Shown here one piece after another: positions 38,466 through 58,794 of a stretch of 64,000 nt of DNA (within the stretch, counting starts at the first letter, position 1; the number at the start of each line of letters is the position of its first letter). A program made the position numbers and the translations under genes. This DNA comes from Streptomyces sp. BA2 (GTDB taxonomy: Bacteria > Actinomycetota > Actinomycetes > Streptomycetales > Streptomycetaceae). The notes below the pieces were generated by a model, which did no database searches, was not told the DNA's origin, and saw only the letters and a program-made list of their open reading frames with translations. The DNA is taken from NCBI RefSeq assembly GCF_009769735.1, contig NZ_WSRO01000002.1:1488001-1552000 (forward strand), written 5' to 3'.

Positions 38466-38816
38466 GGGAAACGGGGTTCCCGGCAGACGCCCATGCATGC
38501 AGGGCAACAGCGCGTCTTCGTCGAGGCCCCCGTCGGCCGTGGCCGATAGGTGGCTCCAGCATCAAACCTTGAGCACAAATTACACACAACCCCTCTACAT
38601 ACTCATTCCCATGGTCTAAGTTGACCGTGCTTCAGCTGTTCAGGCACAAAGCGACCAGCAATGATCTTTTTCAAGTGGCGCTGACACAGCAGGAGTTGTC
38701 ATACGCGGGAGGCCGGGGGGCCTCCCGAGGGGGAGGAACAGCGCGGCGGGGGGCGGGGGCTTCCCGAGAACAGTGTTGGGCGAGCACGTCGAACCACTGG
38801 CGACCTGGGGGGTCCC
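38466..38816. other. 351 bp promoter region of the exopolysaccharide locus
   Basis: The gap separates the SsgA-like gene (leftward) from the first exopolysaccharide gene (rightward). A stretch at about 38560-38625 is strikingly A/T-rich for this genome. A perfect hairpin GGGAGGCC-GGGG-GGCCTCCC lies at 38707-38726. A TTGACC hexamer occurs at 38621 but without a convincing -10. No gene is supported. Confidence 0.55.
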
Positions 38817-40295
38817 GTGCAACAGGGGGAATTAGTCAGCCCGTTACCGTCGGAGCGCGGGCGTCTGGCGAGCGGGGCGATCAGGCGGCCCGCGATCGAC
38901 TGGGAGCAGCGGTACCGCCGTACCGTGATCGTCAGCGATACCGCGGCCACCGCCGTCGTGGTGGCGGCGATCGGCAGCTTCTTCGGGGCCAGGGACGCGG
39001 CCAACTGGCACGAGAAGTGGGGAATTCTCGCCTTCGGCACCGAGCTGCTCGTGCTGGGAGCGCTTGCGATGAGCAGGGCGTGGGCTCCGCCCACGCTCGG
39101 CCAGGGCGCCGAGGAATTCCGCCGGCTCGGACGCTCACTGTTCACCGCGGCCGTCGTACTCGCGCTGGGAGGCATCGCCCTCACCTCGCGCAACATCAAG
39201 CTCTGGATCTTCGTCGCGATCCCGGCGATCGCGCTCATCACCATGACCGAGCGGTACCTGCTGCGCCTCTGGCTGCACAAACAGCGGAAGGAAGGGCAGT
39301 GTCTGCGCCCGGTGCTCGCCGCCGGGAGCCCGGCCACCGTACGCGATCTGATCGCCCGGACCCGCAAGTTCCCGCACCTCGGCTGGCGGGTGGAGGCGGT
39401 GTGCACGCCGGACGGTCTCGGGATCGACGGTGACCAACTGGACGGAGTGCCGGTCGTCGGCAGGCTGACGGACGTCGCGGGCCACGTCCGCCGCGACGGC
39501 TACCGTGTCGTCGCGGTCACATCGGACCCTGACTGGTCACCGGACGGCCTGCAGCGGCTCGCCTGGAACCTCGAAGGCAGCGATGCCGAGATGGTCGTGG
39601 CGCCCGTGCTCATGGAGGTGGCGGGACCGCGGCTGCACGTCGACGCGGTGCTCGGGATCCCGCTGCTCCGGGTCAGTATGCCGACCTTCTCCGGGGGCCG
39701 CCGGGTGGTCAAAGGGGTCGTCGACCGGTTGGGCGCGGCGGTCCTGCTGCTGCTGTTCGCGCCGCTGATGATGCTCGTCGGGCTGCTCGTGCTCATGGAC
39801 AGCCGGGGCGGGGCGCTGTACCGCCAGCGAAGAGTCGGCAAGGACGGCCGCGAGTTCACCATCTTCAAGTTCCGCACCATGGTCGTCGGGGCCGACGCGG
39901 CACGTGACGCGCTGGCCGACCGCAACGAGGGCGCGGGCCTGCTGTTCAAGCTCCGCCGGGATCCGCGGGTGACCCGGGTGGGAACGGTGTTGCGCCGGTA
40001 CTCGCTCGACGAACTCCCGCAGCTATTCAACGTACTCATCGGGTCGATGTCGCTCGTCGGCCCGCGGCCTCCGCTGCCGGAGGAGTCCGCGGCGTACGGC
40101 CCGGACATCCGGCGGCGGCTCCTGGTCAAGCCCGGCCTCACCGGGCTGTGGCAGATCAGCGGGCGCAGCGACCTGCCGTGGGAGGAGGCGATCCGGCTCG
40201 ACCTGCGGTACGTGGAGGACTGGTCGCTCGCCCTGGACACAGTGATCTTGTGGAAGACGCTGCGTGCGGTGCTCCACGGGCAGGGGGCCTACTGA
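38817..40295 (+). CDS. Priming polyprenyl-phosphate sugar transferase (WcaJ/CpsE type)
   Basis: The protein has 492 residues and starts at GTG. Four to five N-terminal membrane helices and a CoA-binding-like domain precede a further helix and the catalytic bacterial sugar-transferase domain (FTIFKFRTMVVGAD, RRYSLDELPQLFNVL, MSLVGPRPPLP, KPGLTGLWQISGRSDL). It puts the first sugar phosphate on undecaprenyl phosphate. Codons 6 (38832-38834) and 10 (38844-38846) are both TTA, the rare leucine codon read only by the bldA tRNA. Confidence 0.95.
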   Translation: MQQGELVSPLPSERGRLASGAIRRPAIDWEQRYRRTVIVSDTAATAVVVAAIGSFFGARDAANWHEKWGILAFGTELLVLGALAMSRAWAPPTLGQGAEEFRRLGRSLFTAAVVLALGGIALTSRNIKLWIFVAIPAIALITMTERYLLRLWLHKQRKEGQCLRPVLAAGSPATVRDLIARTRKFPHLGWRVEAVCTPDGLGIDGDQLDGVPVVGRLTDVAGHVRRDGYRVVAVTSDPDWSPDGLQRLAWNLEGSDAEMVVAPVLMEVAGPRLHVDAVLGIPLLRVSMPTFSGGRRVVKGVVDRLGAAVLLLLFAPLMMLVGLLVLMDSRGGALYRQRRVGKDGREFTIFKFRTMVVGADAARDALADRNEGAGLLFKLRRDPRVTRVGTVLRRYSLDELPQLFNVLIGSMSLVGPRPPLPEESAAYGPDIRRRLLVKPGLTGLWQISGRSDLPWEEAIRLDLRYVEDWSLALDTVILWKTLRAVLHGQGAY

Positions 40296-40377
40296 TGCGC
40301 GGGGGGCTGCGGCCCAACTGTCCGGCCGACGCACGGAAGGCAGGCCGCAAGGGCGTGCCTGGGGGGAGGAACGGGTT

Positions 40378-41709
40378 GTGAGAGTCAGTGTCTTAGGGCT
40401 CGGCTACGTGGGCTGTGTGTCGGCCGCGTGCCTGGCCGGGATGGGTCACGAGGTCATCGGGGTCGACGTGAACCAGGTGAAGGTCGACCTGGTCAACGAC
40501 GGCAAGGCCCCGGTGGTCGAGGAGCGGATCGGCGAGCTCGTCGCCGAGGCCGTGCGGACCGGAGCATTGCGTGCCACCGGCGACGTCCGCGAGGCGGTCA
40601 TGAACAGCGACGTGTCGCTGATCTGCGTGGGCACGCCGTCGGAGCCCAACGGCAGCCTGTGCACCACGTACTTGGAGCGGGTCACCGAGCAGATCGGCGC
40701 CGCGCTCGCCGAGAGGGCCGAGGGGGCCGGGCAAGGGGGCCGGCACACCGTCGTGTTCCGCAGCACCATGCTTCCGGGCACCTGTCTGAACCTGCTGGTA
40801 CCGATCCTGGAGAAGAGCGCCGGTACGGCAGGGGTGGACTTCGGGGTCGCGGTCAGCCCGGAGTTCCTGCGCGAGGGCACGAGCGTGCAGGACTTCTTCG
40901 ATCCGCCCAAGACCGTCATCGGCGAGCTCGACCCGGCGAGCGGCGACGTGGTGGCGGCGCTGTACGACGGCCTGCCCGGCGAGGTGTTCCGCGTGCCGGT
41001 CCCGACGGCCGAGGCGATCAAGTACGCGGACAACGCGTTCCACGGCCTCAAGATCGGCTTCGCGAACGAGCTGGGCGCGGTGTGCCAGGCGCTCGGGGTG
41101 GACTCGCACCAGGTGATGGACGTGTTCCTGGCCGACCGCAAGCTGAACATCAGCCCCGCCTATCTGCGGCCCGGCTTCGCCTTCGGTGGCTCCTGCCTGC
41201 CCAAGGACCTGCGCAGCCTGGTCCACGCGGCGCGCCGGGCCGACGTCTCGGTGCCCATCCTCTCCCACGTACTGCCCTCCAACTCCGACCATCTGCAACG
41301 CGCGGTGGACCTGGTCGAGCGCACCGGCAAGCGCCGGGCGGGCCTGTTCGGTCTCTCCTTCAAACCCGGTACCGACGACCTCCGCGAGAGCCCGCTCGTC
41401 GAGCTGGCGGAGAGACTCTTCGGCAAGGGCTACGACCTGAAGATCTACGACGCCAACGTGAGCCTGTCCCGGCTGCTCGGCGCGAACCGCGAGTACATCG
41501 AGACCCGGCTGCCGCACCTCGCGCAGCTCCTCGCGAACTCCGTCGAGGAGGTGCTCGAGCACGCCGAGGTGTGCCTGGTCGGAACCAGGGACCCGGACGT
41601 GCTCTCGGCGCTGCCCCATGGCGAGGGTCCGGTGATCGTCGACCTCATCCACCTACCCGACGCGGAGGCGCGCCGGACCGAACCGGGGTACATAGGCCTT
41701 GCTTGGTAA
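40378..41709 (+). CDS. Nucleotide-sugar 6-dehydrogenase, GDP-mannose dehydrogenase (AlgD)-like
   Basis: The protein has 443 residues. GTG 40378 follows GGAGGA. The N-terminal NAD fold is VSVLGLGYVGCVSAACLA; then come VSPEFLREG, the middle-domain Lys in EAIKYADNAFH and the catalytic Cys273 in FGGSCLPKDL. Spacing and segments such as GLSFKPGTDDLRESPLVELAE look closer to AlgD than to UDP-glucose dehydrogenases. It oxidises the C6 hydroxyl twice to make an NDP-uronic acid, probably GDP-mannuronate. Codon 6 (40393-40395) is TTA. Confidence 0.88.
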   Translation: MRVSVLGLGYVGCVSAACLAGMGHEVIGVDVNQVKVDLVNDGKAPVVEERIGELVAEAVRTGALRATGDVREAVMNSDVSLICVGTPSEPNGSLCTTYLERVTEQIGAALAERAEGAGQGGRHTVVFRSTMLPGTCLNLLVPILEKSAGTAGVDFGVAVSPEFLREGTSVQDFFDPPKTVIGELDPASGDVVAALYDGLPGEVFRVPVPTAEAIKYADNAFHGLKIGFANELGAVCQALGVDSHQVMDVFLADRKLNISPAYLRPGFAFGGSCLPKDLRSLVHAARRADVSVPILSHVLPSNSDHLQRAVDLVERTGKRRAGLFGLSFKPGTDDLRESPLVELAERLFGKGYDLKIYDANVSLSRLLGANREYIETRLPHLAQLLANSVEEVLEHAEVCLVGTRDPDVLSALPHGEGPVIVDLIHLPDAEARRTEPGYIGLAW

Positions 41710-41755
41710 CACATCGTCTGGTGACACATCGCTTGGTGGCACATCGTCTGGTGGC
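41699..41755. repeat. 15 bp tandem repeat at the start of the first glycosyltransferase gene
   Basis: Units of ACATCGTCTGGTGGC type are present in three full copies (41711, 41726, 41741), with a related half unit before them. They encode a Thr-Ser-Ser-Gly-Gly leader and overlap the stop codon of the preceding gene. Confidence 0.88.
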
Positions 41756-43009
41756 ACAACCGGCGGCGACCGGCGAAACCGGCGCGCGCTGATCCTGGTG
41801 GAGAACCTGTCCGTGCCGTTCGACCGGCGGGTGTGGCAGGAGTGCGCGACGCTGCGCGACGCGGGCTGGGAGGTCCACGTCATCTGTCCCCGGGGGGAGA
41901 AGCGGGACACGGAGTCGGAGGCGGTGATCGACGGGGTGCGGATCCACCGCTACCCGTTGCGCGCGGCCACCGGAGGCCCTGCCGGCTATCTGCGGGAGTA
42001 CGGATCGGCGCTGTGGCACACGGTCCGCCTTGCCCGGAAGGTCGGCCCGGTCGACGTGGTCCACGCCTGCAATCCGCCCGACCTGCTGTTCCTGCCCGCG
42101 CTGTGGATGAAGCGGCGCGGCGCGCGGTTCGTCTTCGACCAGCACGACCTGGTGCCCGAGCTGTACCTCTCCCGGTTCGACCGCGGCAAGGACCAGCTCT
42201 ACCGCGCGGTGTGCGCCCTTGAACGGCTGACCTACAAGGCATCGGACGTCGTGCTCGCCACGAACGAGAGCTACCGGGACGTCGCGGTGCGCCGTGGCGG
42301 CCGCCGCCCCGAGGACGTCTTCGTGGTGCGCAGCGCGCCCGACACCGACCGGTTCCAACCGGTGCCGCCCGAGCAGGAGTTGAAGCGCGGCAAGCCCCAT
42401 CTGCTGTGCTACCTCGGGGTCATGGGCCCGCAGGACGGCGTCGACTACGCCTTGCGGGCCCTCGCGAAGCTGCGTGACGAGCTCGGACGTACCGACTGGC
42501 ACGCGGTGTTCGTCGGCGGCGGCGACACCTTCGACGCGATGGTGGAGCTGTCCCGGCGGCTCGGCCTGGCGGAGCAGGTGCAGTTCACCGGGCGCGTTCC
42601 GGACGCCGACCTGGTGCGCTATCTGTCCTCCGCTGACGTGTGCCTCTCCCCCGACCCGCGCAATCCGCTCAACGACGTGTCGACCATGAACAAGGTCCTT
42701 GAGTACATGGTGATGGGCCGGCCGATCGTCTCGTTCGACCTCCGGGAGGCGAGAGTCTCCGCCGGTGACGCCGCCCTCTACGCGCCCGCCAACGACGAGG
42801 CCGAGTTCGCCAAGCTCATCGCGCTGCTCCTGGACGATCCGGAGCAGCGGGCCCGGATGGGCGAGATCGGCCAGGAGCGGATCAACGGGCAGCTTTCCTG
42901 GCGGAACTCGCAGGCGTCGCTGCTCGCCGCCTACGCCGCGGCCTGCCGCGAGCACACTCCGGTGTCCACGGATGGCTCGGCCCGGACAGTGCGGAGGCCA
43001 CGCCGTTGA
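41699..43009 (+). CDS. Glycosyltransferase family 4
   Basis: The protein has 436 residues. The TTG at 41699 overlaps the end of the dehydrogenase gene; no ATG or GTG occurs in frame before the first beta strand (RALILVENLSVPFDRRVW), so TTG is the likely start. The N-terminal leader is a Thr/Ser/Gly repeat. It is a GT-B enzyme with a FVFDQHDLVPELY acceptor region and a donor-side motif late in the protein (STMNKVLEYMVMGRPIVSFD). It uses an unknown NDP-sugar on the lipid-linked intermediate at the inner membrane face. Confidence 0.9.
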   Translation: MLGNTSSGDTSLGGTSSGGTTGGDRRNRRALILVENLSVPFDRRVWQECATLRDAGWEVHVICPRGEKRDTESEAVIDGVRIHRYPLRAATGGPAGYLREYGSALWHTVRLARKVGPVDVVHACNPPDLLFLPALWMKRRGARFVFDQHDLVPELYLSRFDRGKDQLYRAVCALERLTYKASDVVLATNESYRDVAVRRGGRRPEDVFVVRSAPDTDRFQPVPPEQELKRGKPHLLCYLGVMGPQDGVDYALRALAKLRDELGRTDWHAVFVGGGDTFDAMVELSRRLGLAEQVQFTGRVPDADLVRYLSSADVCLSPDPRNPLNDVSTMNKVLEYMVMGRPIVSFDLREARVSAGDAALYAPANDEAEFAKLIALLLDDPEQRARMGEIGQERINGQLSWRNSQASLLAAYAAACREHTPVSTDGSARTVRRPRR

Positions 43010-44373
43010 GCGATGACACGATACGTCTGGTCACGATCGGGCGGATCTTCCGTCGGCGCCGGCGGCTTCTCGCCGTCGTCGCCGTGCTGGGCGCGCTCGT
43101 CGGCTACGGCGCCTCTTTGGTGTTCCCGCCGAGTTACACGACGTCGGCTTCGGTGCTCCTGCCGGGACAGTGGGAGGAGCGCGAGCTGCTGACCCAGGCG
43201 GAGATCGCGACCAGTTCGGAGGTGGTCGACCGCGCGGCCGCCACGCTCAGCTGGTCCGGCGTCAGCGGCACCGAACTGCGGGATCAGGTGAGCGCCGAGG
43301 CCGCCGACGGGAACATCATCAAGATCTCGGGTACGGCCGAGACGCCGGGCCGCGCGCAGCGGCTCTCCGACCAAGTCGCCAAGGAATTCGTCACCTTCGC
43401 CGCACGGCTCGCAGGCGACACCACCGACCCCGAAGAGGCGACGGGGCCCGAGGCGCTGCGGGAGAAGGTGGTGCAGACCAACCGCCGCATCACCGACCTC
43501 GCCAATGCGGCCGATCCGGGGCAGACCGTGGAGAGCGTGCAGGTCCGCACCGAGCTCGAGAAGTTGCGCACCGCGCTGGCGGAGGCCATGAAGAAGCTGG
43601 ACCAGGCCGACCCGGCGACCGACAAGGCCAGCATGGTCGTCATGGGGTCGGCCGCCCGGCCGACCGGCGAGGCACCGCCGACCAGGACGCAGCTCATCGT
43701 GGCAGGGGCACTGCTGTTCTTCCTGCTCACGGTCATCGGCCATCTCGCCGCGGCACGGACGAATCGCCGGCTGCGCACCGAACCGGAGATCGCCGCGGCC
43801 CTGGGCTCCACGCTCATCGGCACCGTCGACGTACTTGATGAACGGCCCGCTCACGGGCCAAAGGACCGTGGCACGCGCGCCCGGATCCGCCGGCTCCTCG
43901 GCGTCGACACGCGGTGGGACGTTCCGGCCCCGCAGGCGTCCGGCGACGAGGCCGGCAGGCGGATCCGCTACCGGCGGGTGTGCGCTCGCCTCAGGAATCA
44001 ACTGCCGTCCCCCCGGCGGCTGCTGGTCGTCGTACCGGAGAGCGACGAGATCGCCCGCCGGGCCGCCGGGCAGCTGGCCACCGAGGCCGCGAGCGACCCG
44101 CTGCTGCGGGTGGCGGAAGTCTCGGCGGAGCGGCCGATGGTGCCCGACCGCGACACCGAGTCCGGTGCCCTGGTCGTGCTCAGCGCGGGCAGCTGGACCG
44201 CGGCGGAGCTCACCGGCATCGCGGAGGCTTGTGCGGACGCGGGGCACGAGATCGCCGGCATCGTCGTCGCCGGAACGGTCCTGGCCCGCCCGACGCGCAC
44301 CGCCGGCCGTCCCGCGCAACACGCCGCACCGGCGCTCGCGGGCGGCGACGACGCGAGGGGAGGTTCAGCGTGA
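43006..44373 (+). CDS. Wzz-like polysaccharide co-polymerase, copy 1
   Basis: The protein has 455 residues, with a TTG start inside a TTGA overlap and GGAGG upstream. A short basic N terminus precedes helix 1 (LLAVVAVLGALVGYGASLVF). A periplasmic-side coiled domain follows, then helix 2 (LIVAGALLFFLLTVIGHLAA). The C-terminal cytosolic region has a Rossmann-like pattern (RRLLVVVPESDEIARRAA) but no Walker A lysine and no tyrosine cluster. It should set polymer length, but it is not an active BY-kinase. Confidence 0.85.
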   Translation: MSDDTIRLVTIGRIFRRRRRLLAVVAVLGALVGYGASLVFPPSYTTSASVLLPGQWEERELLTQAEIATSSEVVDRAAATLSWSGVSGTELRDQVSAEAADGNIIKISGTAETPGRAQRLSDQVAKEFVTFAARLAGDTTDPEEATGPEALREKVVQTNRRITDLANAADPGQTVESVQVRTELEKLRTALAEAMKKLDQADPATDKASMVVMGSAARPTGEAPPTRTQLIVAGALLFFLLTVIGHLAAARTNRRLRTEPEIAAALGSTLIGTVDVLDERPAHGPKDRGTRARIRRLLGVDTRWDVPAPQASGDEAGRRIRYRRVCARLRNQLPSPRRLLVVVPESDEIARRAAGQLATEAASDPLLRVAEVSAERPMVPDRDTESGALVVLSAGSWTAAELTGIAEACADAGHEIAGIVVAGTVLARPTRTAGRPAQHAAPALAGGDDARGGSA

Positions 44374-45896
44374 CGACGAGCGAGACTTCGGAGTCGTCGA
44401 CGACCACTCCGCTCTTCGACCTGCAGGCGCTGGTGGCTGCGGTGCGCAGGCGCAGGCGCCTCTGGTGCTCCCTGGCGCTCCTCGGGCTGCTGGTCGGCGC
44501 GGCGGTGGCGGTCCTGCTGCCGCCGCCACCGTCCGCCGTGACCAAGGTGCTTGTCACGCACGAGGAGGACCAGCCGAACGACACCGGGACGCTGATCCGC
44601 ACCGACGTCGAACTCCTCGGGACGACGCGGATCGCCGGCAAGGCCCTGCAGTCCCTCAAGTCCCCGGAGAAACCGGAGGACTTCATGCGGGACTACCGCG
44701 GCACCGGCCTGACCAACAACCTGCTGCAGATCGATGTGACGGGTGACAGCGACGCGGATGCGGTGGCCCGGGCCAAGGCCCTGGCCGACGCGTTCGTCGA
44801 TGACCATGTGAGGCGGATGCGGGAGACCGCGAAAGCCAAGTCCAAGGCCCTGATCGACCAGCGTGACCGCATGCGGGACGAACTCGCCGAGGTCAACAAG
44901 GAGATCGGGGACCGATCGCCGGAGAGCGACCCGAAGTCGTCGGCGAGCGTCGAGTCGCTCTTCGCACGCCGGGCCGAGCTCAACTCGCGGATCGCCGATT
45001 TCGACCAGCGCGCGGCGGAGGCGCGCACCGGCACGCCCCAGATCGTCGCCGGCACGCAGATCGTGGACGCGCCTCGCGCGGTGCGGCACTCCCTGCCCAA
45101 GGCCGCTGTGACCAACGCCGCGATCGGGCTGCTCCTCGGGCTCGTCCTCGGACTCGCGGTGGCCGCGGTCGGCGCCGTGGTGGCGGGCCGACCCGTGCTG
45201 CGCCGGGAGATCGCGGCGCACCTGGGCGCCTCGGTCATCGCGGAGCTGCGCCCTGTGCCCCGTTGGCGGGCCGGGCCGTGGCGGCGGCGACGGAGCCGGG
45301 CGGCACGCGAACGGCTCACCACGACCCTGGCCCGCACCGTGCGCGGCTGCGCGGAACCGGTGTCGCTGCTCGAACTGGGCTGTGCGCGCGGCACGAGCGT
45401 GATCGCCCTGGACGTCGCCAGGGCGCTGGCGGCGGAAGGGCCGGTGGTCATCGTCGACGGTCTGCCAGGACCGCAGCTCGCCGACAGCCGCCGGAAGCCG
45501 GGCGACCCGGCCGTGGTCAGCGGCGAGCGTGCCGCGGCCGTGGAGCGCCGGGAGCGCCGGCTCGGCGTCGGCTCGGTCGCGCCCGGCACGGCGTGGACCG
45601 ACCTCCAGTACCTCGGAGGACAGACCGTGCTCGTCGTGCGTGCCGGGCACGGCAGCGCCGGCTGGCTGCACACCGTGGCGCGGCAGCTCGCGGACCAGCG
45701 CATTCCGGTGATCGGTGTGGTGCTGATCGACCCCGATCCGCGTGACCGGACCGACGGCACGCTGTGGGACGGGCTGCACATCGCGCTGCGGGGTCACAGC
45801 GAGCGCTTCGCCCGGCAGAACGAGATGGGCCAGCTGCGGACGGAACGGCCGTCACGGGCCGTACGAGTCCCGGACACCGACCAGGAGGCGCGCTAA
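44370..45896 (+). CDS. Wzz-like polysaccharide co-polymerase, copy 2
   Basis: The protein has 508 residues, starting at GTG with GGGGAGG upstream and a 4 bp overlap. It has the same plan as copy 1: helix 1 (CSLALLGLLVGAAVAVLL), an external helical domain with EVNKEIGDRSPE, helix 2 (GLLLGLVLGLAVAAVGAVVA), then a cytosolic P-loop-like domain. The Walker A position reads GCARGTSVIAL, lacking the invariant GK. It is probably a catalytically dead BY-kinase relative that forms a hetero-complex with copy 1. Confidence 0.85.
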   Translation: MTTSETSESSTTTPLFDLQALVAAVRRRRRLWCSLALLGLLVGAAVAVLLPPPPSAVTKVLVTHEEDQPNDTGTLIRTDVELLGTTRIAGKALQSLKSPEKPEDFMRDYRGTGLTNNLLQIDVTGDSDADAVARAKALADAFVDDHVRRMRETAKAKSKALIDQRDRMRDELAEVNKEIGDRSPESDPKSSASVESLFARRAELNSRIADFDQRAAEARTGTPQIVAGTQIVDAPRAVRHSLPKAAVTNAAIGLLLGLVLGLAVAAVGAVVAGRPVLRREIAAHLGASVIAELRPVPRWRAGPWRRRRSRAARERLTTTLARTVRGCAEPVSLLELGCARGTSVIALDVARALAAEGPVVIVDGLPGPQLADSRRKPGDPAVVSGERAAAVERRERRLGVGSVAPGTAWTDLQYLGGQTVLVVRAGHGSAGWLHTVARQLADQRIPVIGVVLIDPDPRDRTDGTLWDGLHIALRGHSERFARQNEMGQLRTERPSRAVRVPDTDQEAR

Positions 45897-45899
45897 GAA

Positions 45900-47828: not shown

Positions 47829-47853
47829 CGGAGTGGAAACAAGAGGAGCTCGG

Positions 47854-50052
47854 GTGAAACAGGTTGTGCAGAACTACAAGAGCGGCGAACTGGCGCTGCT
47901 CGACGTGCCGGTGCCGGGGTGCAAGCCGGGCGGTGTGCTTGTCCGGAGCGCCTACTCGCTGATATCCACCGGAACCGAGCTCATGAAGGTCTCCGAAGCC
48001 GGCATGTCGATGGTGGGCAAGGCCCGCTCCCGGCCGGACCAGGTCGCCAAGGTCATGCAGAGCGTGGCCACCAACGGGGTGCCCGCCACGTACCGCAAGG
48101 TGATGGGCAAGCTGGACTCCTACACGCCGCTCGGCTACTCGCTGTGCGGGGTGGTCGAGCAGGTCGGCGCCGGGATCGACGACGTGAAGGTCGGCGACGT
48201 CGTGGCCTGCGCCGGCAACGAGCACGCGCTGCACGCCGAGCTGAACTGGGTGCCGAAGAACCTCTACGTCCCGGTGCCGGACGGCCTCGCGCCACGGCAC
48301 GCGGCCTTCGGCACCGTCGGCTCGATCGCGATGCAGGGCGTCCGCCAAGGTGAGCCGCAGCTCGGCGAAGTGGCCCTTGTCATCGGCCTCGGCCTGATCG
48401 GGCAGCTGGTGGTGCAGCTCCTCACCGCCTCGGGAGTCCGCGTCGTCGGGGCCGACCCCGACGCGGCGCGCTGCGAGCTCGCCGAACGCCTGGGCGCGGT
48501 GGCCTGCGGTGATCCGGCGTCCACGGCCGTGGAGACCGCCGTCGCCGAGCTCACGGACGGCCACGGCGTGGATCAGGTGTACCTGGCCGCAGGCGGCGGC
48601 AGCAACCAGCCCGTCGAGCTGGCCGCCCGGCTCTGCCGGGACCGCGGCCGGGTCGTCGACATCGGCAAGTGCCGCCTGGACCTGCCGTGGAACGCGTACT
48701 ACGAGAAGGAGCTCGACGTCCGGTTCTCCCGCAGCTACGGCCCCGGGCGCTACGACCCGGCGTACGAACTGGAGGGGCGCGACTACCCGATCGGCTATGT
48801 GCGCTGGACGGAGCGCCGCAACCTGGCGTGCTTCCTCGATCTCCTGGCCCGCGACCGCGTCGACGTGGAGCCCTTGATCTCCCACATCGCCGACTTCGAT
48901 GACGCCGTCGAGACGTACCAGCGCCTGAAGGACGGCGACTTGAAGGCCGTGGCCGTGCTGTTCCGGTACCCCGAGCACGCGGGGGAAGCCGGGCACACGG
49001 AGGCCCCGCAGGTGGCCGTGCCCGCGGTGGCTGTGTCCACCAGAAACATGAAGCGGGGTCCGGCTCGGGCCGCCAAGGCGCCCGTACGGCTCGCGTTCGT
49101 CGGCGCGGGAAACTACGCGACGTCGATGCTGCTGCCGCACCTGGCACAGCGCGACAGCGTCGAGTTGTCGACAGTCGTCACCACGACGGCGCTGTCGGCG
49201 GCCAACGCGCAGCGGAAGTTCGGTTTCGCCGACGCGACCACCGATCTCGACGCCGTGCTCGGCGACAAGTCCATCGACGCGGTGTTCGTGGTCACCCGGC
49301 ACAGCTCGCACGCCGAACTGACCCGCAGGGCACTCCTCGCGGGCAAGGCGGTGTTCGTGGAGAAGCCCCTGGCCCTCACCGAGGACGACCTGGCCGGCGT
49401 GCTCGCGGCGGTGGAGGAGTCCGGCAACGACCGGCTGCAAGTGGGCTTCAACCGCCGGTTCGCGCCGCTGCTCCAGGAGGCCAGGAAGCGGTTCGGCACC
49501 CGGAGCGGCCCTGCGAACCTCCGCTACCTGGTCAACGCGGGCCGCCTGCAGCACGGCAGCTGGTACCTCCAACAGGGCACCGAGGGCTCGCGGTTCGCCG
49601 GCGAGGGCGGGCACTTCATCGACACGGCGAGCTGGCTGCTCGACGCCGACCCGGAATCGGTGTACGCGGTCGCCACGTCCGGCAACGAAGACCTCCAGGT
49701 CGTGCTGCGCTACCCGGACGGATCCACTGCCACCATCAGCTATGTCACCACCGGCCCGGCCGGCTTTCCCAAGGAGACCCTCGACCTGGTCGCGGACGGC
49801 CGTGCGCTGCGGCTCGACGACTTCGTGCGTGCCTCTGTCTACGACGGCCGCGGCAAGCGGTGGGTCAGTTCACGGCTGCCCAAGGCCCGGGACAAGGGCC
49901 AGAACGCCGAGCTGGCCGCGTTCATCAAGGCCGTGCGGAGCGGAGGGCCGATGCCGGTGCCGCTGGAGTCGCTCGTCGCCACCACGGCGGCCACCCTCGC
50001 CGTGCAGACCGGCCTGGCCGGCGGCGTGCCGGTGACGCTGGCGAGGGCGTGA
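47854..50052 (+). CDS. Fused two-domain oxidoreductase (MDR dehydrogenase + Gfo/Idh/MocA)
   Basis: The protein has 732 residues, starting at GTG after GAGGAG. Residues 1-375 are a medium-chain dehydrogenase (YSLISTGTEL, then a nucleotide-binding VIGLGLIGQLVVQLL). Residues 405-732 are a Gfo/Idh/MocA oxidoreductase (LAFVGAGNYATSMLLPHL, then FVEKPLALTEDDL with its EKP motif). The fusion recurs in bacterial exopolysaccharide loci beside heparinase-type genes, as here. It probably oxidises and reduces successive positions of a nucleotide sugar. Exact chemistry is not known. Confidence 0.9.
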   Translation: MKQVVQNYKSGELALLDVPVPGCKPGGVLVRSAYSLISTGTELMKVSEAGMSMVGKARSRPDQVAKVMQSVATNGVPATYRKVMGKLDSYTPLGYSLCGVVEQVGAGIDDVKVGDVVACAGNEHALHAELNWVPKNLYVPVPDGLAPRHAAFGTVGSIAMQGVRQGEPQLGEVALVIGLGLIGQLVVQLLTASGVRVVGADPDAARCELAERLGAVACGDPASTAVETAVAELTDGHGVDQVYLAAGGGSNQPVELAARLCRDRGRVVDIGKCRLDLPWNAYYEKELDVRFSRSYGPGRYDPAYELEGRDYPIGYVRWTERRNLACFLDLLARDRVDVEPLISHIADFDDAVETYQRLKDGDLKAVAVLFRYPEHAGEAGHTEAPQVAVPAVAVSTRNMKRGPARAAKAPVRLAFVGAGNYATSMLLPHLAQRDSVELSTVVTTTALSAANAQRKFGFADATTDLDAVLGDKSIDAVFVVTRHSSHAELTRRALLAGKAVFVEKPLALTEDDLAGVLAAVEESGNDRLQVGFNRRFAPLLQEARKRFGTRSGPANLRYLVNAGRLQHGSWYLQQGTEGSRFAGEGGHFIDTASWLLDADPESVYAVATSGNEDLQVVLRYPDGSTATISYVTTGPAGFPKETLDLVADGRALRLDDFVRASVYDGRGKRWVSSRLPKARDKGQNAELAAFIKAVRSGGPMPVPLESLVATTAATLAVQTGLAGGVPVTLARA

Positions 50053-52031
50053 TGACCATGAGCGCCGTCTGGTACCTGCGGCGGCTGTCCCGGATGGGAC
50101 CGCGGGAGGTCGGCGGCCGGCTGGGCGACGCGCTGCGCAGGCGGCAATGGCGGTCGGCGCGGCCGGAGTGTCCGAGCGTGACCGGCGCCCGGTTCACCGC
50201 GGTACTGCCCGCAGGGACGATCGCCGCGGTGCCACCGGACGCCGCGAAACGTCTCGTCGCCGAAGCGGACCGGCTGATGGCCGGGCACGCCGAGTACTTC
50301 GGCGTCGACCGCGACGACCTGGCCGACCCGGACTGGTGGTACGACCCGAAGACCGGGCGCCGGGCTCCGTGGGGCTACGCCTTCGACGTGCCGTACCGCA
50401 ACGAGGAAGCGGTCGGCGACATCAAGCAGATCTGGGAGCTGTCCCGGCACCAGTACCTCACCGTGCTCGCCGCTGCCTACGCGATCACCGGGAACGAGCG
50501 GTACGCCGAACGCGTGGCCGAGCACCTGCGGTTGTGGTGGGCGGCCAACCCGCCGCTGCGCGGGGTGCACTGGATCAGCGGCATCGAGCTGGGGATCCGG
50601 CTGCTTTCCTGGGTATGGGTACGGCGGCTGCTCGACGGCTGGCAGGGCGCGGCCGGCCTCTTCGAGGGCAACCCGGTGGCGCTGAACCAGATCTGGCACC
50701 ACCAGCGCTGGCTTGCCGCCTTCCCCAGCCGGGGCTCTTCGGCGAACAACCACGTCATCGCCGAGGCCGCCGGGCAGTTCGCCGCGGCCTGCGCCTTCGG
50801 GTGGTTCCCCTCGTCGGCGCGTTGGCGAGCCGGCGCCCTGCGGTCGCTCGACCGGCAGCTGCGCGGCAACACCTTCGACTCCGGGCTCAACCGCGAGTTG
50901 GCCACCGAGTATCACGGACTCGTCCTTGAGCTCGGCCTGGCCGCGGTGGCCGAGGCGGACGCCGCCCGCGTGCCGGTTCCCGCGTCGGTCCGCCTCGTGC
51001 TGCTGCGCATGACCGACGCGCTCGCGGCCGTCGTGGACAGTCACCTGCGGCCCCCGCGTCAGGGGGACGCGGACGACGGGCACGGTCTGATCGTGGACGG
51101 CGCGGGCACCGACCGCTGGGCCTCGCTCCTGTCCACCGGGGACGCCGTGTTCGGCCGGCTCGCCTGGTGGCCGGCGGTGACCGGAACCGACGTGCGCACC
51201 CCGCTCCTTGCCGCGCTCATCCAGCCGTACGCGAAAAGTGCGTCCGCACCGGCCGTGACCCGCCCGGCAAGCAGGCCAGGCCACTTCGCCGACGCGGGCA
51301 TGACCATCCTGCGCGATCCGGCGGAGGAGATCTGGTGCCGCTGCGACGGCGGGCCGCACGGCTTCCTGTCCATCGCCGCGCACGCCCACGCGGACGCGCT
51401 GTCCGTGGAGGTCCGGCACGACGGGGTCGACGTGCTCGCCGACCCGGGGACGTTCTGCTACCACGGGCAGCCCGCGTGGCGGCAGTACTTCCGGTCGACC
51501 CTCGGCCACAACACCCTGCAGCTGGACGGCGGTGACCAGTCGGTCTCCGGCGGCCCGTTCCTGTGGACCCGGCATGCCCGCAGCCGCGTCCTGGTCGCGG
51601 ACGCATCCGGCGCCTCCCACGGGGGCACGGCCCGCTGGTGCGCCGAGCACGACGGTTACCAGCGCTCCGTGCACCGCCGCCGGGTGGAGCTGACCGCCGC
51701 GAGCCAGGAGCTGCGGGTGGTCGACGAGGTGCGCGGCCCGCACCGGACCGTGCGCCTGGCGTTCCACCTCGGCCCGGCGATCGCCGCGGACCTGGTGGGG
51801 AACTGGGCGCTGCTCACCTGGACCCGGGACGGCGAGGAGCGCTCCGCGGTGCTCGACCTGCCAGGGCAGCTGTCCTGGCAGGCGCACCGCGGCGAGACCG
51901 AGCCACCGCTGGGCTGGTACTCCGCGGGCTTCGGACGCAAGGAACCCGCCACCACGCTGGTCGGCACCGGCTTCGCCGACGGCACGGCGCTGTCGGGGGA
52001 GCTCACCACCGTGCTCAAGTTCCGTGGCTAG
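50052..52031 (+). CDS. Heparinase II/III (alginate-lyase family) protein
   Basis: The protein has 659 residues; its ATG shares one base with the preceding stop (TGATG). The N-terminal half is an (alpha/alpha) toroid with the SSANNHVIAEAAGQFAA and NRELATEYHGLVLE segments that hold the family's conserved Asn, His and Tyr. The C-terminal half is the heparinase_II_III beta-sandwich (FLSIAAHAHADALSVEV, LADPGTFCYHG, FRSTLGHNTLQLDG). No signal peptide is seen. It is likely a uronate-linkage lyase that edits or trims the polymer. Confidence 0.9.
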   Translation: MTMSAVWYLRRLSRMGPREVGGRLGDALRRRQWRSARPECPSVTGARFTAVLPAGTIAAVPPDAAKRLVAEADRLMAGHAEYFGVDRDDLADPDWWYDPKTGRRAPWGYAFDVPYRNEEAVGDIKQIWELSRHQYLTVLAAAYAITGNERYAERVAEHLRLWWAANPPLRGVHWISGIELGIRLLSWVWVRRLLDGWQGAAGLFEGNPVALNQIWHHQRWLAAFPSRGSSANNHVIAEAAGQFAAACAFGWFPSSARWRAGALRSLDRQLRGNTFDSGLNRELATEYHGLVLELGLAAVAEADAARVPVPASVRLVLLRMTDALAAVVDSHLRPPRQGDADDGHGLIVDGAGTDRWASLLSTGDAVFGRLAWWPAVTGTDVRTPLLAALIQPYAKSASAPAVTRPASRPGHFADAGMTILRDPAEEIWCRCDGGPHGFLSIAAHAHADALSVEVRHDGVDVLADPGTFCYHGQPAWRQYFRSTLGHNTLQLDGGDQSVSGGPFLWTRHARSRVLVADASGASHGGTARWCAEHDGYQRSVHRRRVELTAASQELRVVDEVRGPHRTVRLAFHLGPAIAADLVGNWALLTWTRDGEERSAVLDLPGQLSWQAHRGETEPPLGWYSAGFGRKEPATTLVGTGFADGTALSGELTTVLKFRG

Positions 52032-52044
52032 GAGAGGAGGACAC

Positions 52045-53583
52045 GTGGGGATCAAGTGGCGGCGCCTGACGTTGCCGGCGGCACCGCTGGCGCTGGCCCT
52101 GCTCGCGGCGACCGGCTGTACGAGCACGCCGGACGCCCAGGCGAAGCCGACCGGTGCGCCGTCGGCCTCCGGCGCGCCTTCCACCTCCGTGGCCCGCGTG
52201 TGCGCCAAACCCGCGCCCGGCCCCGCGAAGGCGCCCAAGGGGGCGGTGACGGTCGATCCCGCCGTGGTCGGTGACCTGGCCGCGAAGACCAAGAGCAGCC
52301 CCCCGAACACCACGTTCTGGCTCCGACCGGGCAAGCACAGGCTCGATCCGGACCGCTACGCCCAGGTCATCCCCAAGAAGGGGAACCGCTACCTCGGCGC
52401 GCCGGGCGCGGTGTTCGACGGCCGGAAGACCAACCAGTACGCGTTCGGCGGCAGCGCCCGCGACGTCACCATCCGCCACCTGACCGTGCAGCGTTTCGTG
52501 GCGCCGCCGGACGAGGGCGTGGTCAACCACGACTCGGCCGACGGATGGGTGATCGAGCACGCGACGATCCAGAACAACTCCGGTGCCGGGCTGATGGCCG
52601 GTGCCCGCCAGCGGGTCCGCGCCAGCTGCCTGCGCGACAACGGTCAGTACGGCATGAACGCGTACAAGGCCGGGGGCCGTATCACCGGCCTGGTGGTCGA
52701 GGGCAACGAGATCGTGGGCAACAACACCGACGACTGGGAGCGGAAGCGGGAGGGCTGCGGCTGCACCGGAGGCATCAAGTTCTGGGCGGTCAACGGCGCC
52801 GACGTGCGCGGCAATTGGGTGCACGACAACCGCGGAACCGGGCTGTGGGCGGACACCAACAACAACGACTTCCGCATCGAGAACAACGTGCTCGAGGCCA
52901 ACGACGGTGCCGCGCTGATCTACGAGACCAGCTACAACGCGGTCATCCGGAAGAACACGGTCAGGAAGAACAACTGGGTCGAGGGCCGCAGGTACGCCGA
53001 CCGCGGCGACAACTTCCCGTTCGCGACCATCTACCTGTCCGAGTCCGGTGGCGAACCACGGGTCCGGGCTCGCACCGACAAGATCGAGATCGACCGGAAC
53101 CTCCTGGAGAACAACTGGTCCGGGATCACCCTGTGGGAGAACGCCGACCGGTTCTGCAACAGCCCGGCCAACACCTCGTCCGGTGACTGCACGTTGCTGG
53201 TGAAGAACACCGACCGCTGCGCGAAGCCGGCGATCGCGAAGGCACCGCTCTACGCCGACTGCCGGTGGAAGACCCAGCGGGTGGACATCCACCACAACCG
53301 CTTCGTGCTCGACCCGTCCGTCGTCAAGTGCGCGGCGAAGTGCGGCCGGATGGCGGTCCTCGCCAACTACGGCACCTATCCGGACTGGTCGCCGTACAAG
53401 GGCGAGCGCGTGTCCGAGGCGATCACCGGGAAGCAGAACAACCGCTGGCACGACAACGTCTATCGCGGGCCATGGAGCTTCATCGCCCACGACCCGAGCG
53501 GACAGCTCGACTTCGGGCAGTGGCAGGGCACGCCGTACCGGCAGGACGCGGGCAGCACCTTCCGCGCGCGGGTCGGTGGTTGA
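52045..53583 (+). CDS. Right-handed beta-helix lipoprotein
   Basis: The protein has 512 residues, starting at GTG with GGAGAGGAGG upstream. A lipoprotein-type signal ends at Cys25 (LALALLAATGC). The mature protein is a NosD/pectate-lyase-like parallel beta-helix with repeated Asn ladders (WVHDNRGTGLWADTNNND, IENNVLEANDGAAL). Such folds include polysaccharide lyases and C5-epimerases like AlgG. With an AlgD-like dehydrogenase and heparinase in the same operon, a polymer epimerase or lyase role is plausible but unproven. Confidence 0.85.
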   Translation: MGIKWRRLTLPAAPLALALLAATGCTSTPDAQAKPTGAPSASGAPSTSVARVCAKPAPGPAKAPKGAVTVDPAVVGDLAAKTKSSPPNTTFWLRPGKHRLDPDRYAQVIPKKGNRYLGAPGAVFDGRKTNQYAFGGSARDVTIRHLTVQRFVAPPDEGVVNHDSADGWVIEHATIQNNSGAGLMAGARQRVRASCLRDNGQYGMNAYKAGGRITGLVVEGNEIVGNNTDDWERKREGCGCTGGIKFWAVNGADVRGNWVHDNRGTGLWADTNNNDFRIENNVLEANDGAALIYETSYNAVIRKNTVRKNNWVEGRRYADRGDNFPFATIYLSESGGEPRVRARTDKIEIDRNLLENNWSGITLWENADRFCNSPANTSSGDCTLLVKNTDRCAKPAIAKAPLYADCRWKTQRVDIHHNRFVLDPSVVKCAAKCGRMAVLANYGTYPDWSPYKGERVSEAITGKQNNRWHDNVYRGPWSFIAHDPSGQLDFGQWQGTPYRQDAGSTFRARVGG

Positions 53584-53584
53584 G

Positions 53585-54886
53585 ATGAGCCTGGACCACA
53601 CGAAGCACGCGGACCACACGGAGCACGCGGACCACACGCCGAAGATCACGGACCGCACGCCGAAGGTCATCGGGACGGTCTGGGGGCTGCTGATCCTCAA
53701 CACTCTCGGCTCCGCCGGGGCGCAGACCATCGTCCCGCTGCCCCGCTCCCTCATCCAGATGGTCACCATGGGCGCGCTGGTCGCCGCGTTCGCGCTGGCG
53801 CTCGCGGTCAATCTCCGGCTGCGCATCCGAGCCAGCGCCTTCGTGTTCCTGCTCACCCTGCTGCTCGTGCCGAGCGTGATCGCGAGCGCGGACCTGGAGT
53901 CCGGGCTCGGCGCGCTGTTCCGCTGCGCCCGGCTCGCTCTCTTCGTCGGCACGCTGTGGCTGCTCGGCCGCTGGTGGGACGGCAGCCTGACGTTCGTCAG
54001 GCACCACATCCGGATGTACTTCGCGGTGCTCGGGTCGGTGGCCGCAGGCCTGGTCATCTCACCGGGCGCGGCCATGCCCGAGCTCTACGGCGGGCGCCTT
54101 GTCGGCGCGTTGTGGCCGCTCACCCCACCGCAGATCGGTCAGTACGCCGCGGTGATCATCGGGCTCACCGTGCTGCTCGTACTGGGCCGCAGGACCGACA
54201 GGGCAAGCGCGGCGGTGGTCATCGTGCCGTCGCTCGTCCTGCTCGTGCTGACCCATACCCGTACGGCCACGCTCGGCCTGTTCGTCGGCCTTGCGCTGGC
54301 GATCGGCTCACTCATACTGACCAGCGCCGCCGCCCGGCGGTTCTTCACCTGGGCGGTGCTGTGCGCCGCGGTGGCCGCGGTGGGGTTCAGCTCCGCGCTG
54401 CAGGTCTGGTTCCTGCGCGGACAGGACGAGGAGAACCTCAGCAGTCTCACCGGTCGGGCCAAGGTCTGGGACGCCCTGCTCGCCGCGCCCCGCACCACCG
54501 CGGAGAAGGTGTTCGGCACGGGCCTGGGCGACAAGTCGTTCGGCGGGCTTCCGATCGACAACAGCTGGCTTGCCGTTTACCACGAACAGGGCCTGATCGG
54601 CATCGCGTTGGTGGCGACGGTCATCATCGTGCTCGCCGGCGTCGCGTTGCTGCGGCCGCCGTCCCTGTCGAGGGCCTGCGCGATCTTCCTGATCAGCTAC
54701 TGCGCGATCGCGTCGTACACCGAGGCCGGTCTCGGCGACGCCTCGCCCTATCTGCTGCATCTGGCCCTGGCCGCCTCGCTCCTCGCGGCGCCTGCGGCGG
54801 CCTCGCACCTGCCGGCGCCCGCGGTCCCGCGACGACGTGCCCCGCGACGTGTGCCGCGATGGGCCCGGAATACGGAGGTGAGTTGA
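53585..54886 (+). CDS. O-antigen ligase/polymerase (Wzy-like) membrane protein
   Basis: The protein has 433 residues from ATG 53585. About ten to twelve membrane segments follow a His/Asp/Thr-rich leader encoded by an 18 bp repeat. The pattern of a long external loop with a conserved DNSWLAVYHEQGLIG segment and HTRTATLGLFVGL is typical of the Wzy_C/O-antigen ligase group. It should polymerise lipid-linked repeat units outside the membrane. Confidence 0.88.
   Translation: MSLDHTKHADHTEHADHTPKITDRTPKVIGTVWGLLILNTLGSAGAQTIVPLPRSLIQMVTMGALVAAFALALAVNLRLRIRASAFVFLLTLLLVPSVIASADLESGLGALFRCARLALFVGTLWLLGRWWDGSLTFVRHHIRMYFAVLGSVAAGLVISPGAAMPELYGGRLVGALWPLTPPQIGQYAAVIIGLTVLLVLGRRTDRASAAVVIVPSLVLLVLTHTRTATLGLFVGLALAIGSLILTSAAARRFFTWAVLCAAVAAVGFSSALQVWFLRGQDEENLSSLTGRAKVWDALLAAPRTTAEKVFGTGLGDKSFGGLPIDNSWLAVYHEQGLIGIALVATVIIVLAGVALLRPPSLSRACAIFLISYCAIASYTEAGLGDASPYLLHLALAASLLAAPAAASHLPAPAVPRRRAPRRVPRWARNTEVS
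53593..53638. repeat. 18 bp tandem repeat at the start of the wzy-like gene
   Basis: GGACCACACGAAGCACGC is followed by one copy with one mismatch and a partial third. It encodes the His-Thr-Lys/Glu-His-Ala-Asp leader; the frame is preserved. Confidence 0.88.
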
Positions 54887-54888
54887 GC

Positions 54889-56100
54889 ATGCACGTCCTC
54901 GTGGTGCACAACCGCTACGCCTCGGCGCAGCCGAGCGGCGAGAACAAGGTCGTCGACCAGGAGGTGGAGCTGCTGCGCGCGGCCGGCCACCGGGTCGAGG
55001 TGTTCGAGCGGCGCAGCGACGACATCGCCGCCCGGTCCCTGCCCGCCAAGGCCGCGGTGGCGCTCCTCGTGCCGTGGAACCCGGCGGTCCGCAAGGAGCT
55101 CGCCGCCCGGCTCCGCGCCGAGCGGCCGGACGTGGTGCACGTCCACAACGTCTTCCCGCTCCTCTCCCCCGCGGTGCTTGCCGCCTGCGCCGACGCCGGT
55201 GTGCCCGCCGTCGCCACGCTGCACAACTACACCCAGGTCTGCCCGCCCGGCACGCTGCAGCGGGACGGCCGGCCGTGCACCGAGTGCGTCGGGGCTGCGG
55301 CGCCGCTGCCCGCCGTCCGGCACGGCTGCTACCGGAACTCCCGGCTCGCGACGGTGCCGCTCGCGGTCAGCCTTCTCGTCAACCGGCGCCGGTGGTGGTC
55401 CGGGGTGGAGCGGTTCTTCTGCATCTCCGCGGCGCAGCGCGACGTCCTGGTGCGGTCCGGCATGCCGGCCGAACGCCTGGTGGTGAAGCACAACTTCGTG
55501 CCCGAACCGGACACCCGCCGTGAAGGCGCCGGTGAGCATCTGCTCTATCTCGGCCGGCTCGCGGAGGCCAAGGGCGTGCGGCTGCTCATGGCCGCGTGGG
55601 ACGAGATAGCCGCCGACGGCGGTGTGGGCGTGCCGCTCGTGATCGCCGGCACGGGGCCGCTCGAGCAAGAGGTGACCGCCTGGGCCGCGGGCCGGGACGA
55701 CGTGCGCTACGTCGGTCTGTACGACGCGGCGGAGTGCCGCAAGGCCATCGCGCGCTCGGTCGCGGTGGTGGCTCCCTCGACGTGGCTTGAGGCGTTCGGC
55801 CTGGTGGTCGTGGAGGCGATGGCGGCCGGGGTTCCGACCGTCGCCGCCGGTCACGGCGCCTTCGTCGAACTCGTCGAGGACGGCGTGACCGGGCTGCTTC
55901 ACCGGCCGGGCGAGGCAGCCTCGCTCGCGGAGCGCATACGCCGGATCGCGGCCGAGCAGGCCCGCAACCAGGAGATGGGCCGGGCGGCCCGGCGCCGTTA
56001 CGAGCAGGGCTTCAGCCCGGCCGTCGGCCTTGAGCGCCTGGTGGAGGGGTACCGCACCGCGATCGCGGGTCGGACGGAATTATGGGGGGACAGTAGATGA
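54889..56100 (+). CDS. Glycosyltransferase family 4
   Basis: The protein has 403 residues, with GGAGGTGA 8 nt upstream of the ATG. The N-terminal VLVVHNRYASAQPSGENKVV and the donor motif ASTWLEAFGLVVVEAMAAG-like segment (PSTWLEAFGLVVVEAMA) define a GT-B retaining enzyme. VHVHNVFPLLSP is the usual acceptor-side loop. The fifth codon from the stop is TTA (56080-56082), a further bldA codon in this operon. It overlaps the next gene by 4 bp. Confidence 0.92.
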   Translation: MHVLVVHNRYASAQPSGENKVVDQEVELLRAAGHRVEVFERRSDDIAARSLPAKAAVALLVPWNPAVRKELAARLRAERPDVVHVHNVFPLLSPAVLAACADAGVPAVATLHNYTQVCPPGTLQRDGRPCTECVGAAAPLPAVRHGCYRNSRLATVPLAVSLLVNRRRWWSGVERFFCISAAQRDVLVRSGMPAERLVVKHNFVPEPDTRREGAGEHLLYLGRLAEAKGVRLLMAAWDEIAADGGVGVPLVIAGTGPLEQEVTAWAAGRDDVRYVGLYDAAECRKAIARSVAVVAPSTWLEAFGLVVVEAMAAGVPTVAAGHGAFVELVEDGVTGLLHRPGEAASLAERIRRIAAEQARNQEMGRAARRRYEQGFSPAVGLERLVEGYRTAIAGRTELWGDSR

Positions 56101-58135: not shown

Positions 58136-58794
58136 TCGGGCTCGGGGCCGGGCCCCTGAACCGGATCGTCGCGGTCGGCGCGCACTGCGACGACATCGCC
58201 ATCGGCGCCGGCGGCACGCTCCTCATGCTGTGCCTCGCGCGGCCGGGTATCCGCGTCGACGCGCTCGTGCTCTCCGGCGGTGGCAGCGAGCGTGAGCAGG
58301 AGGAGCGGGCCGCGCTCGAAGCCTTCTGCCCGGGCGCCGACCTGCGCCTGACCGTGCTCAAGCTGCCGGACGGCCGGATGCCCGTGCACTGGGACGAGGC
58401 CAAGGCCGCGGTCGAGGAGCTGCGCGGGCAGACCGAGCCGGATCTGATCCTGGCCCCGCGCACGGACGACGCGCACCAGGACCACCGCGGCCTGGCGCGG
58501 CTCATACCCACCGCGTTCCGCGATCACCTCGTGCTCGGCTACGAGATCGTCAAGTGGGACGGCGATCTCGGCCGCCCGTCGGCGTACCAGCCGCTGGCGC
58601 CGGAGATCGCCGAGCGGAAGGTGCGGCTGCTGCAGGAGCACTACCCCTCGCAGCGGCACCGCCCTTGGTACGACCGGGAGGCCTTCCTCGGTCTCGCGCG
58701 GATCCGCGGCATCGAATGCCACGCGCGCTACGCCGAGGCGTTCGCCGCCACGAAACTCACGCTCAATCTCGGCACTTTCGATCTGGGGGAATGA
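58132..58794 (+). CDS. PIG-L family N-deacetylase
   Basis: The protein has 220 residues, with a GTG start in a 4 bp overlap. The LmbE/PIG-L zinc motif AHCDDIAIGAGGTLL (AHxDD) and the later zinc-binding TDDAHQDHRGL are intact. The enzyme should remove an acetyl group from an N-acetyl sugar, either free, nucleotide-linked or in the polymer. Coupled on both sides with nucleotide-sugar genes. Confidence 0.9.
   Translation: MIGLGAGPLNRIVAVGAHCDDIAIGAGGTLLMLCLARPGIRVDALVLSGGGSEREQEERAALEAFCPGADLRLTVLKLPDGRMPVHWDEAKAAVEELRGQTEPDLILAPRTDDAHQDHRGLARLIPTAFRDHLVLGYEIVKWDGDLGRPSAYQPLAPEIAERKVRLLQEHYPSQRHRPWYDREAFLGLARIRGIECHARYAEAFAATKLTLNLGTFDLGE

Follow-up and report, generated by a model that had tools for sequence, protein, structure and literature searches.

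Does the tRNA that reads UUA hold back a whole polysaccharide operon, or are the few TTA codons of such an operon incidental? The DNA analysed here (the window) comprises 64,000 nucleotides (nt) of Streptomyces sp. BA2 (contig NZ_WSRO01000002.1, positions 1,488,001 to 1,552,000 of the forward strand), and all positions below are those of the window. It carries a 17-gene exopolysaccharide operon that begins with a priming sugar transferase at 38817 and that is, by gene order, the counterpart of SCO0381-0401 from Streptomyces coelicolor. A first-pass annotation, made from the sequence alone, had proposed that TTA codons, which are read by the bldA transfer RNA (tRNA), active late in development, make the whole polymer a developmentally timed product. 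Here we examine where these codons lie, whether they exceed the genome background, and how they behave in related operons.

TTA codons and gene starts

Every TTA triplet in the window was listed, and the genes were translated. In-frame TTA codons were found at 38832-38834 (codon 6) and 38844-38846 (codon 10) of the priming sugar transferase open reading frame (ORF) from GTG 38817, at 40393-40395 (codon 6) of a nucleotide-sugar dehydrogenase from GTG 40378, and at 56080-56082 (codon 398 of 403) of the GT4 glycosyltransferase at 54889. The fifth, at 30490-30492 on the minus strand, is codon 79 of an MPAB/Lcp-like protein. The listing bears out the first-pass count of five TTA codons with four in exopolysaccharide genes, and also the places given for the first three. 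The TTA codon of the glycosyltransferase is present as well, slightly away from the fifth codon from the end to which it had been assigned, since five codons follow it. Outside the operon, TTA occurs in a single gene of this DNA (29503-30726, minus strand), which is MPAB/rubber-oxygenase-like (PF09995) and unrelated to the operon.

The starts of the first two genes required attention. A crude codon-usage gene caller placed the transferase start at 38925, which would exclude both TTA codons from the protein; this caller set the starts of both genes too far downstream and recovered two of the five TTA codons of the window. For the dehydrogenase, mechanical ORF finding gives a start at 40264, and 40378 was adopted because of the Rossmann motif VRVSVLGLGYVG and the orthologue start codons at that place. 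Orthologues were collected from a sample of 295 Streptomyces genomes, of which 111, this genome included, contain the transferase at E below 1e-150. Among 106 genomes measured, 99 have the transferase GTG and the conserved W-E-Q-R codons separated by a multiple of 3 (81-102 nt in 98 and exactly 84 in 90, the remainder resembling pattern mis-hits), and the stretch 5' of the GTG varies across all three phases. Since the spacing is in phase after the GTG and not before it, transferase codons 6 and 10 are very probably translated. No alternative in-frame ATG, GTG, or TTG exists at codons 2-28 in 69 of the 111 genomes.

Excess over the genome background

The comparison with the genome background that the first-pass annotation had suggested was made with 30 stretches of 20 kilobases (kb) from the same genome, using the crude gene caller. 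These contain 464 called genes and 155,693 codons, with 11 TTA codons in 9 of the genes. Twelve of the stretches had been picked around tRNA genes, in regions poor in TTA, and contain 2 TTA codons in 186 genes; the remaining 18 contain 9 in 278 genes. The operon was found to have an excess of TTA codons, 4 against 0.56 expected (P = 0.0025), or against 0.73 expected when the 18 stretches alone are used (P = 0.007). Taken alone, the location of four of the five window TTA codons inside the operon is not significant (P = 0.10). The probability of three TTA codons within the first ten codons is 2e-4 with 30 stretches and 9e-4 with 18; counting two genes, the probabilities are 0.006 and 0.015, respectively. 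Of the 11 background TTA codons, three likewise stand among the first ten codons of a called gene, and a bias of TTA toward gene starts in streptomycetes is already published (PMC4255298).

TTA codons in orthologous operons

A comparison with related strains, likewise suggested at first pass, demonstrated that TTA recurs among orthologues, most often at transferase codon 6. The codons found there among the 111 genomes are TTA (42), TTG (17), CTA (16), ATA (15), and CTG (2), with CTC not among the nine commonest. Dehydrogenase codon 64 (40567..40569, plus strand) is TTG in the window, and its orthologues have TTA in 40, CTG in 47, and CTA in 3 of the 111. Transferase codon 420 is a third hot TTA column (TTA 17, TTG 15, CTA 10, and CTG 69 of 111, with no CTC). 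Across 935 codon columns, TTA is found in more than 5 of the 111 genomes at transferase codons 6, 420, and 10 and dehydrogenase codon 64 only. At least one TTA codon occurs in the first two genes of 65 of the 111 genomes, against about 6% expected at the rate of this genome. The number per genome is 0 in 46, 1 in 14, 2 in 37, 3 in 12, 4 in 1, and 5 in 1.

Transferase codon 6 and dehydrogenase codon 64 are both TTA in 26 genomes and neither is in 55, with one only in 16 and 14. This co-occurrence has a Fisher P of 1.4e-5 and a likelihood-ratio P of 7e-4, the latter from a single rough optimisation, and it was reached in none of 2000 simulations of independent evolution on the tree. Parsimony on the gene tree, which recombination could blur, requires 27 and 24 steps for codons 6 and 64, compared with 33.9 and 32.9 after shuffling.

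The genes farther downstream were compared in 20 kb from each of 20 operons whose first two genes contain at least two TTA codons and 20 operons in which these genes contain none, chosen at random from the 50 and 43 with enough contig. Thirteen downstream genes were read, the last of which, an epimerase, is present in 21 of the 40. With gene ends extrapolated, downstream TTA codons were found in 11 of the 20 TTA-rich operons and 2 of the 20 TTA-free operons, a difference reached in 2 of 2000 simulations. Using the aligned parts only, the counts are 9 of 20 and 2 of 20 (P = 0.03; 18 of 2000 simulations). In a second collection, 80 named loci that were the best of 260 relatives in a single scan (the 295-genome set being less selective), downstream TTA codons occur in 16 of 42 TTA-rich loci against 0 of 28 TTA-free ones, or, counted strictly, in 11 of 42 against 0 of 28 (P = 0.002). 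Loci with a single TTA codon gave a strict count of 3 of 9.

Two general causes of this pattern were considered and set aside. The first is the genome-wide TTA rate, of which there was no sign in ten regions per group about 100 kb away (2 TTA in 51,454 codons against 2 in 50,332) and a weak trend in the flanks. The second is loss of bldA from TTA-free genomes. A match to the tRNA gene was found in 289 of the 295 genomes, and only one of the 46 TTA-free genomes is without it; the matches were made by BLAST, and anticodons were not checked individually. In this genome the tRNA-Leu(UAA) gene lies at G000:C2:4045843-4045927 (also L010:5844-5928).

The proposed checkpoint

From these comparisons, the TTA codons of the operon tend to be present or absent together, at flexible positions. 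Because they do so, a checkpoint at the level of the operon is supported, and this putative Wzx/Wzy-type operon, as the counterpart of SCO0381-0401, probably stands behind bldA. The codons, start site, tRNA gene, gene order, and the recurrence and co-occurrence of TTA are direct observations on which the following mechanism is built. Where the UUA-reading tRNA is scarce, ribosomes would be expected to stall at UUA in this strain. With UUA at transferase codons 6 and 10 and dehydrogenase codon 6, translation would be halted just past initiation, and less of the priming enzyme and of the enzyme for the uronic-acid precursor would be made. Polarity, as proposed in the S. coelicolor literature, and message decay could then lower the rest of the operon. 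The position of UUA would be flexible, and its presence seems to be decided mostly at the level of the operon. For this strain, stalling, polarity, and timing are all inferred.

Several observations weigh against this checkpoint, in addition to those given with the alternatives below. Three of the four TTA sites of this genome are sporadic in relatives: transferase codon 10 is TTA in 7 and TTT in 92 of the 111 genomes, dehydrogenase codon 6 is TTA in 5 and TTC in 95, and the second GT4 gene (54889) has no TTA in any of 40 orthologous operons read. The TTA codons that the first-pass annotation had proposed to seek in relatives are thus recurrent at transferase codon 6 and sporadic at the other three positions; where it had named CTG or CTC as the refuting codons, codon 10 and dehydrogenase codon 6 mostly have TTT or TTC (Phe) instead. 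TTA at transferase codon 420 goes with TTA at codon 64 (12 of 2000 simulations) but not with TTA at codon 6 (1531 of 2000), which misfits a simple set. The two groups of 20 operons were selected by TTA content, and the strict recount weakens the downstream effect. The upstream flanks of TTA-rich loci contain 9 TTA in 73,989 codons (30 loci) and those of TTA-free loci 0 in 38,548 (18 loci); pooled with the remote regions the difference has a P of 0.09, and a regional effect is possible. Finally, the first two genes are free of TTA in 46 of the 111 operons, although 45 of these 46 genomes match the tRNA gene, so that the timing is no constant trait of the polymer. Read most simply, some lineages have retained the bldA lock on the operon, and others have lost the lock but not the tRNA gene. 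The original proposal of a developmentally timed polymer is partly supported, by the TTA set, the tRNA-Leu(UAA) gene, and the published bldA dependence of the S. coelicolor cluster (PMC2000904); early silence of the first two genes is a prediction for this strain.

In this structural operon, UUA codons tend to be kept or lost together as their positions move, which makes a long-standing question testable, namely whether such codons in non-regulatory genes are adaptive checkpoints or passengers.

Alternative explanations of the TTA codons

It is possible, though we consider it doubtful, that the TTA codons at transferase positions 6 and 10 are kept for AT-rich first codons, as an open ribosome-binding region or another nucleotide element, and not for the bldA tRNA. 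Codon 6 is A/T-rich whatever residue it encodes, codon 10 is the TTT already noted in most genomes, and conservation is strong in the block that directly precedes and surrounds the start. AT-richness leaves unexplained dehydrogenase codon 64, which is far from a start, and its co-occurrence with codon 6. A constraint at the nucleotide level near the start, in addition to bldA, is likely from these alignments.

A second alternative, which we regard as unlikely, is that bldA acts indirectly through AdpA, itself encoded with a UUA codon, and that the UUA codons of the operon matter little. In an S. lividans adpA mutant, several cluster genes are reduced to about 0.5-0.6 (PMC4021200). No exact AdpA consensus site was found in the four leaders scanned, weaker sites not being scored, and the set pattern of TTA across operons speaks against a route through AdpA alone. 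So does the absence of the last two proteins of the S. coelicolor cluster from a bldA mutant, which its authors attributed to possible polarity (PMC2000904).

It is improbable that the TTA codons are chance relics in a GC-rich genome. The sporadic occurrence of three of the four sites and the nonsignificant share of the operon in the window TTA codons would fit such an origin; the excess over background and the hot TTA columns would not, nor would the many changes on the gene tree without a drift to CTG at codon 6.

The reading that codon 6 is kept as nTA-G to provide the TAG stop of an overlapping, translationally coupled frame of 20 codons from GTG 38773 was rejected as highly improbable. 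Many orthologues share such a frame with the window (VLGEHVEPLATWGVPCNRGN), but among 100 genomes measured its phase relative to the transferase takes all three values, and TAG is no commoner where it could serve as a stop (32 of 51 in that phase, against 24 of 40 in one of the other phases and 9 of 9 in the remaining one).

A conserved leader before the transferase

The region upstream of the transferase is a conserved, locus-specific leader, as judged by alignment. Four reference leaders, compared with the other 64 in the alignment, keep about 55-89% identity in most blocks of 50 nt until roughly 400-500 nt upstream of the start codon; farther than about 550 nt, identity falls to 38% or less. 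The leader begins with a promoter-like block, which 60 of 65 leaders carry at a distance of 207-500 nt from the start (median about 388), and the leader of this genome is the shortest of the 60, about 180 nt below the median. A 137-nt piece of the leader matched 96 of the 295 genomes. Of these, 95 belong to the 111 that have the transferase, and the exception is a marginal match of 24 nt. Outside this sample, the 461-nt leader of Streptantibioticus rubrisoli gave matches, mostly partial, in 15 of 101 genomes of the family and 5 of 17 genera, and the one full-length identical match is probably its own source. No paper on this leader turned up in literature searches, as judged from the titles listed.

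The leaders contain GC hairpin units of 20 nt. With up to 5 mismatches, 217 units were found in 102 of the 111 genomes, 1-5 in each and often 34-41 nt apart. In 12 genomes searched, the hairpin pattern occurs in 11 exact copies, every one at this locus and spread over 6 of the genomes. This genome has one copy with one mismatch at the locus and another elsewhere, its own units differing from the pattern of its relatives. A further hairpin of the type GGGCCTTGGGTGC-GGGGA-GCACCC lies about 190-330 nt upstream of the transferase in many relatives and was not found in the window. Among the 80 named loci, 15 draft contigs end 28-128 nt before the transferase, which suggests difficulty in sequencing or assembling the leader; strong GC hairpins might be the reason.

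Covariation in the leader is not significant against shuffles, a comparison to which low-complexity G/C arms lend little power. In 78 of 97 selected sequences, pairs with changes on both sides number 4 compared with 3.4 after shuffling (reached in 220 of 500 shuffles), and 90.1% of cells are paired compared with 89.5% (reached in 4 of 500). Counted by unit, the figure is 20, against a mean of 10.6 and a maximum of 20 in 1000 shuffles. Because covariation does not exceed the shuffles, a function of the leader as RNA is a proposal only. We offer it tentatively, as a rather unlikely extension of the checkpoint: two locks acting after initiation might be stacked, the one consisting of UUA codons gained or purged largely operon-wide and the other of the operon-specific leader, whose tandem GC hairpins would control elongation or the access of ribosomes and whose length and number of hairpins would tune that control.

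A scan of the window leader for sigma-70 promoters and terminators gave none. Several genes of the cluster are reported to be up in a dasR mutant (PMC4398421). The DasR dre site A(G/C)TGGTCTAGACCA(G/C)T, searched in one of its forms with up to 5 mismatches, has no match in four leaders; the promoter-like block of the orthologues (38612-38626 in the window) shares only TGGTCTAGA with the left half of the DasR site.

Genes of the operon

The features of the locus are collected in Table 1. For the dehydrogenase, the next-best models are UDP-glucose (uridine diphosphate glucose) dehydrogenases, all below their cut-offs. The first-pass label "AlgD-like" holds for a nucleotide-sugar dehydrogenase in general; by the nearest models the UDP-glucose type is the better one, with no specific model above its cut-off. 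Among the parts of a Wzx/Wzy system, the priming transferase and the two Wzz proteins are clear, the Wzy match is below its cut-off, and the last protein of the operon (61106), a putative flippase by position and look only, has no family match. The gene order was compared with the labels of SCO0381-0397 (PMC3610822), by label and not by sequence; 12 of 12 informative labels agree, and five are "hypothetical".

Table 1. Features of the exopolysaccharide locus and its leader (positions in the window)
Feature	Position	Strand	Basis and remarks
Conserved leader, short in this genome	38577..38816	+	alignment of relatives
Promoter-like block TGGTCTAAGTTGACC	38612-38626	+	within leader
Leader hairpin 1	38706..38727	+	9-bp (base pair) GC stem, GGGG loop
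Leader hairpin 2	38747..38766	+	8-bp stem, GGGG loop
Most conserved 3' leader block	38770..38816	+	ends in G-rich ribosome-binding region
Priming polyprenyl-phosphate sugar transferase, SCO0381 position	38817..40295	+	492 amino acids (aa), start GTG; TIGR03025 EPS_sugtrans above cut-off, PF02397
Nucleotide-sugar (UDP-glucose type) dehydrogenase, SCO0382 position	40378..41709	+	443 aa; TIGR03026 above cut-off, PF03721/00984/03720
GT4 glycosyltransferase, SCO0383 position	41699..43009	+	PF13692/PF00534; without TTA, TTA-bearing in S. coelicolor (PMC2000904)
Wzz-type chain-length protein 1	43006..44373	+	PF02706
Wzz-type chain-length protein 2	44370..45896	+	PF02706 (from 44385); start by gene caller
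Asparagine-synthase-like amidotransferase	45900..47828	+	PF00733, TIGR01536
Bi-domain oxidoreductase (alcohol dehydrogenase, ADH, + Gfo/Idh/MocA)	47833..50052	+	family search
Heparinase II/III-like protein	50043..52031	+	PF07940, PF16889
Beta-helix protein	52024..53583	+	PF13229; position of SCO0389 "lipoprotein" (PMC3610822)
Wzy/O-antigen ligase-like membrane protein	53576..54886	+	PF04932 below cut-off
GT4 glycosyltransferase, SCO0391 position	54889..56100	+	TTA at 56080-56082
Operon remainder: C-methyltransferase, nucleotidyltransferase (weak match), PIG-L deacetylase, epimerase, DUF4910 peptidase-like, last protein	56097..62389	+	family search; order compatible with SCO0392-0397

Comparison with known systems

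JUMPstart/ops and EAR are leader elements of polysaccharide operons. The locus described here resembles those operons in having a long conserved untranslated leader, and differs in that Rfam gave no match at E up to 1 in three of the leaders. The ste (Ebosin) exopolysaccharide cluster of Streptomyces sp. 139 is said to resemble SCO0381-0401 (PMC4398421). The reading of UUA by the bldA tRNA as a checkpoint is shared with adpA and other TTA-bearing developmental genes; however, adpA has TTA in all streptomycetes analysed (PMC4255298), whereas the first two genes of the present operon are often free of it.

The closest system is SCO0381-0401 itself, published as a bldA-dependent cluster with suspected polarity and two TTA genes, SCO0383 and SCO0399 (PMC2000904). 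In the S. coelicolor bldA mutant, four of five detected proteins of the cluster are down twofold or more (PMC2000904). Separately, in the second mycelium of S. coelicolor, transcripts of the cluster increase by about 1.7-16 fold (PMC3610822). TTA codons have been tabulated for orthologues of SCO0381 in 6 of 12 genomes, SCO0382 in 5 of 9, and SCO0383 in 2 of 10 (PMC4255298, table 2). Because this bldA dependence is published and the first three genes are tabled as often TTA-bearing, the main idea of the first-pass annotation is already in print for the corresponding cluster, and this genome adds a member. The two loci have the same order of functions and both bear TTA codons, but those of S. 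coelicolor lie in SCO0383 and SCO0399 and those described here at the SCO0381, SCO0382, and SCO0391 positions. What is added here is the site-by-site comparison, the behaviour of the TTA codons as a set, and the leader.

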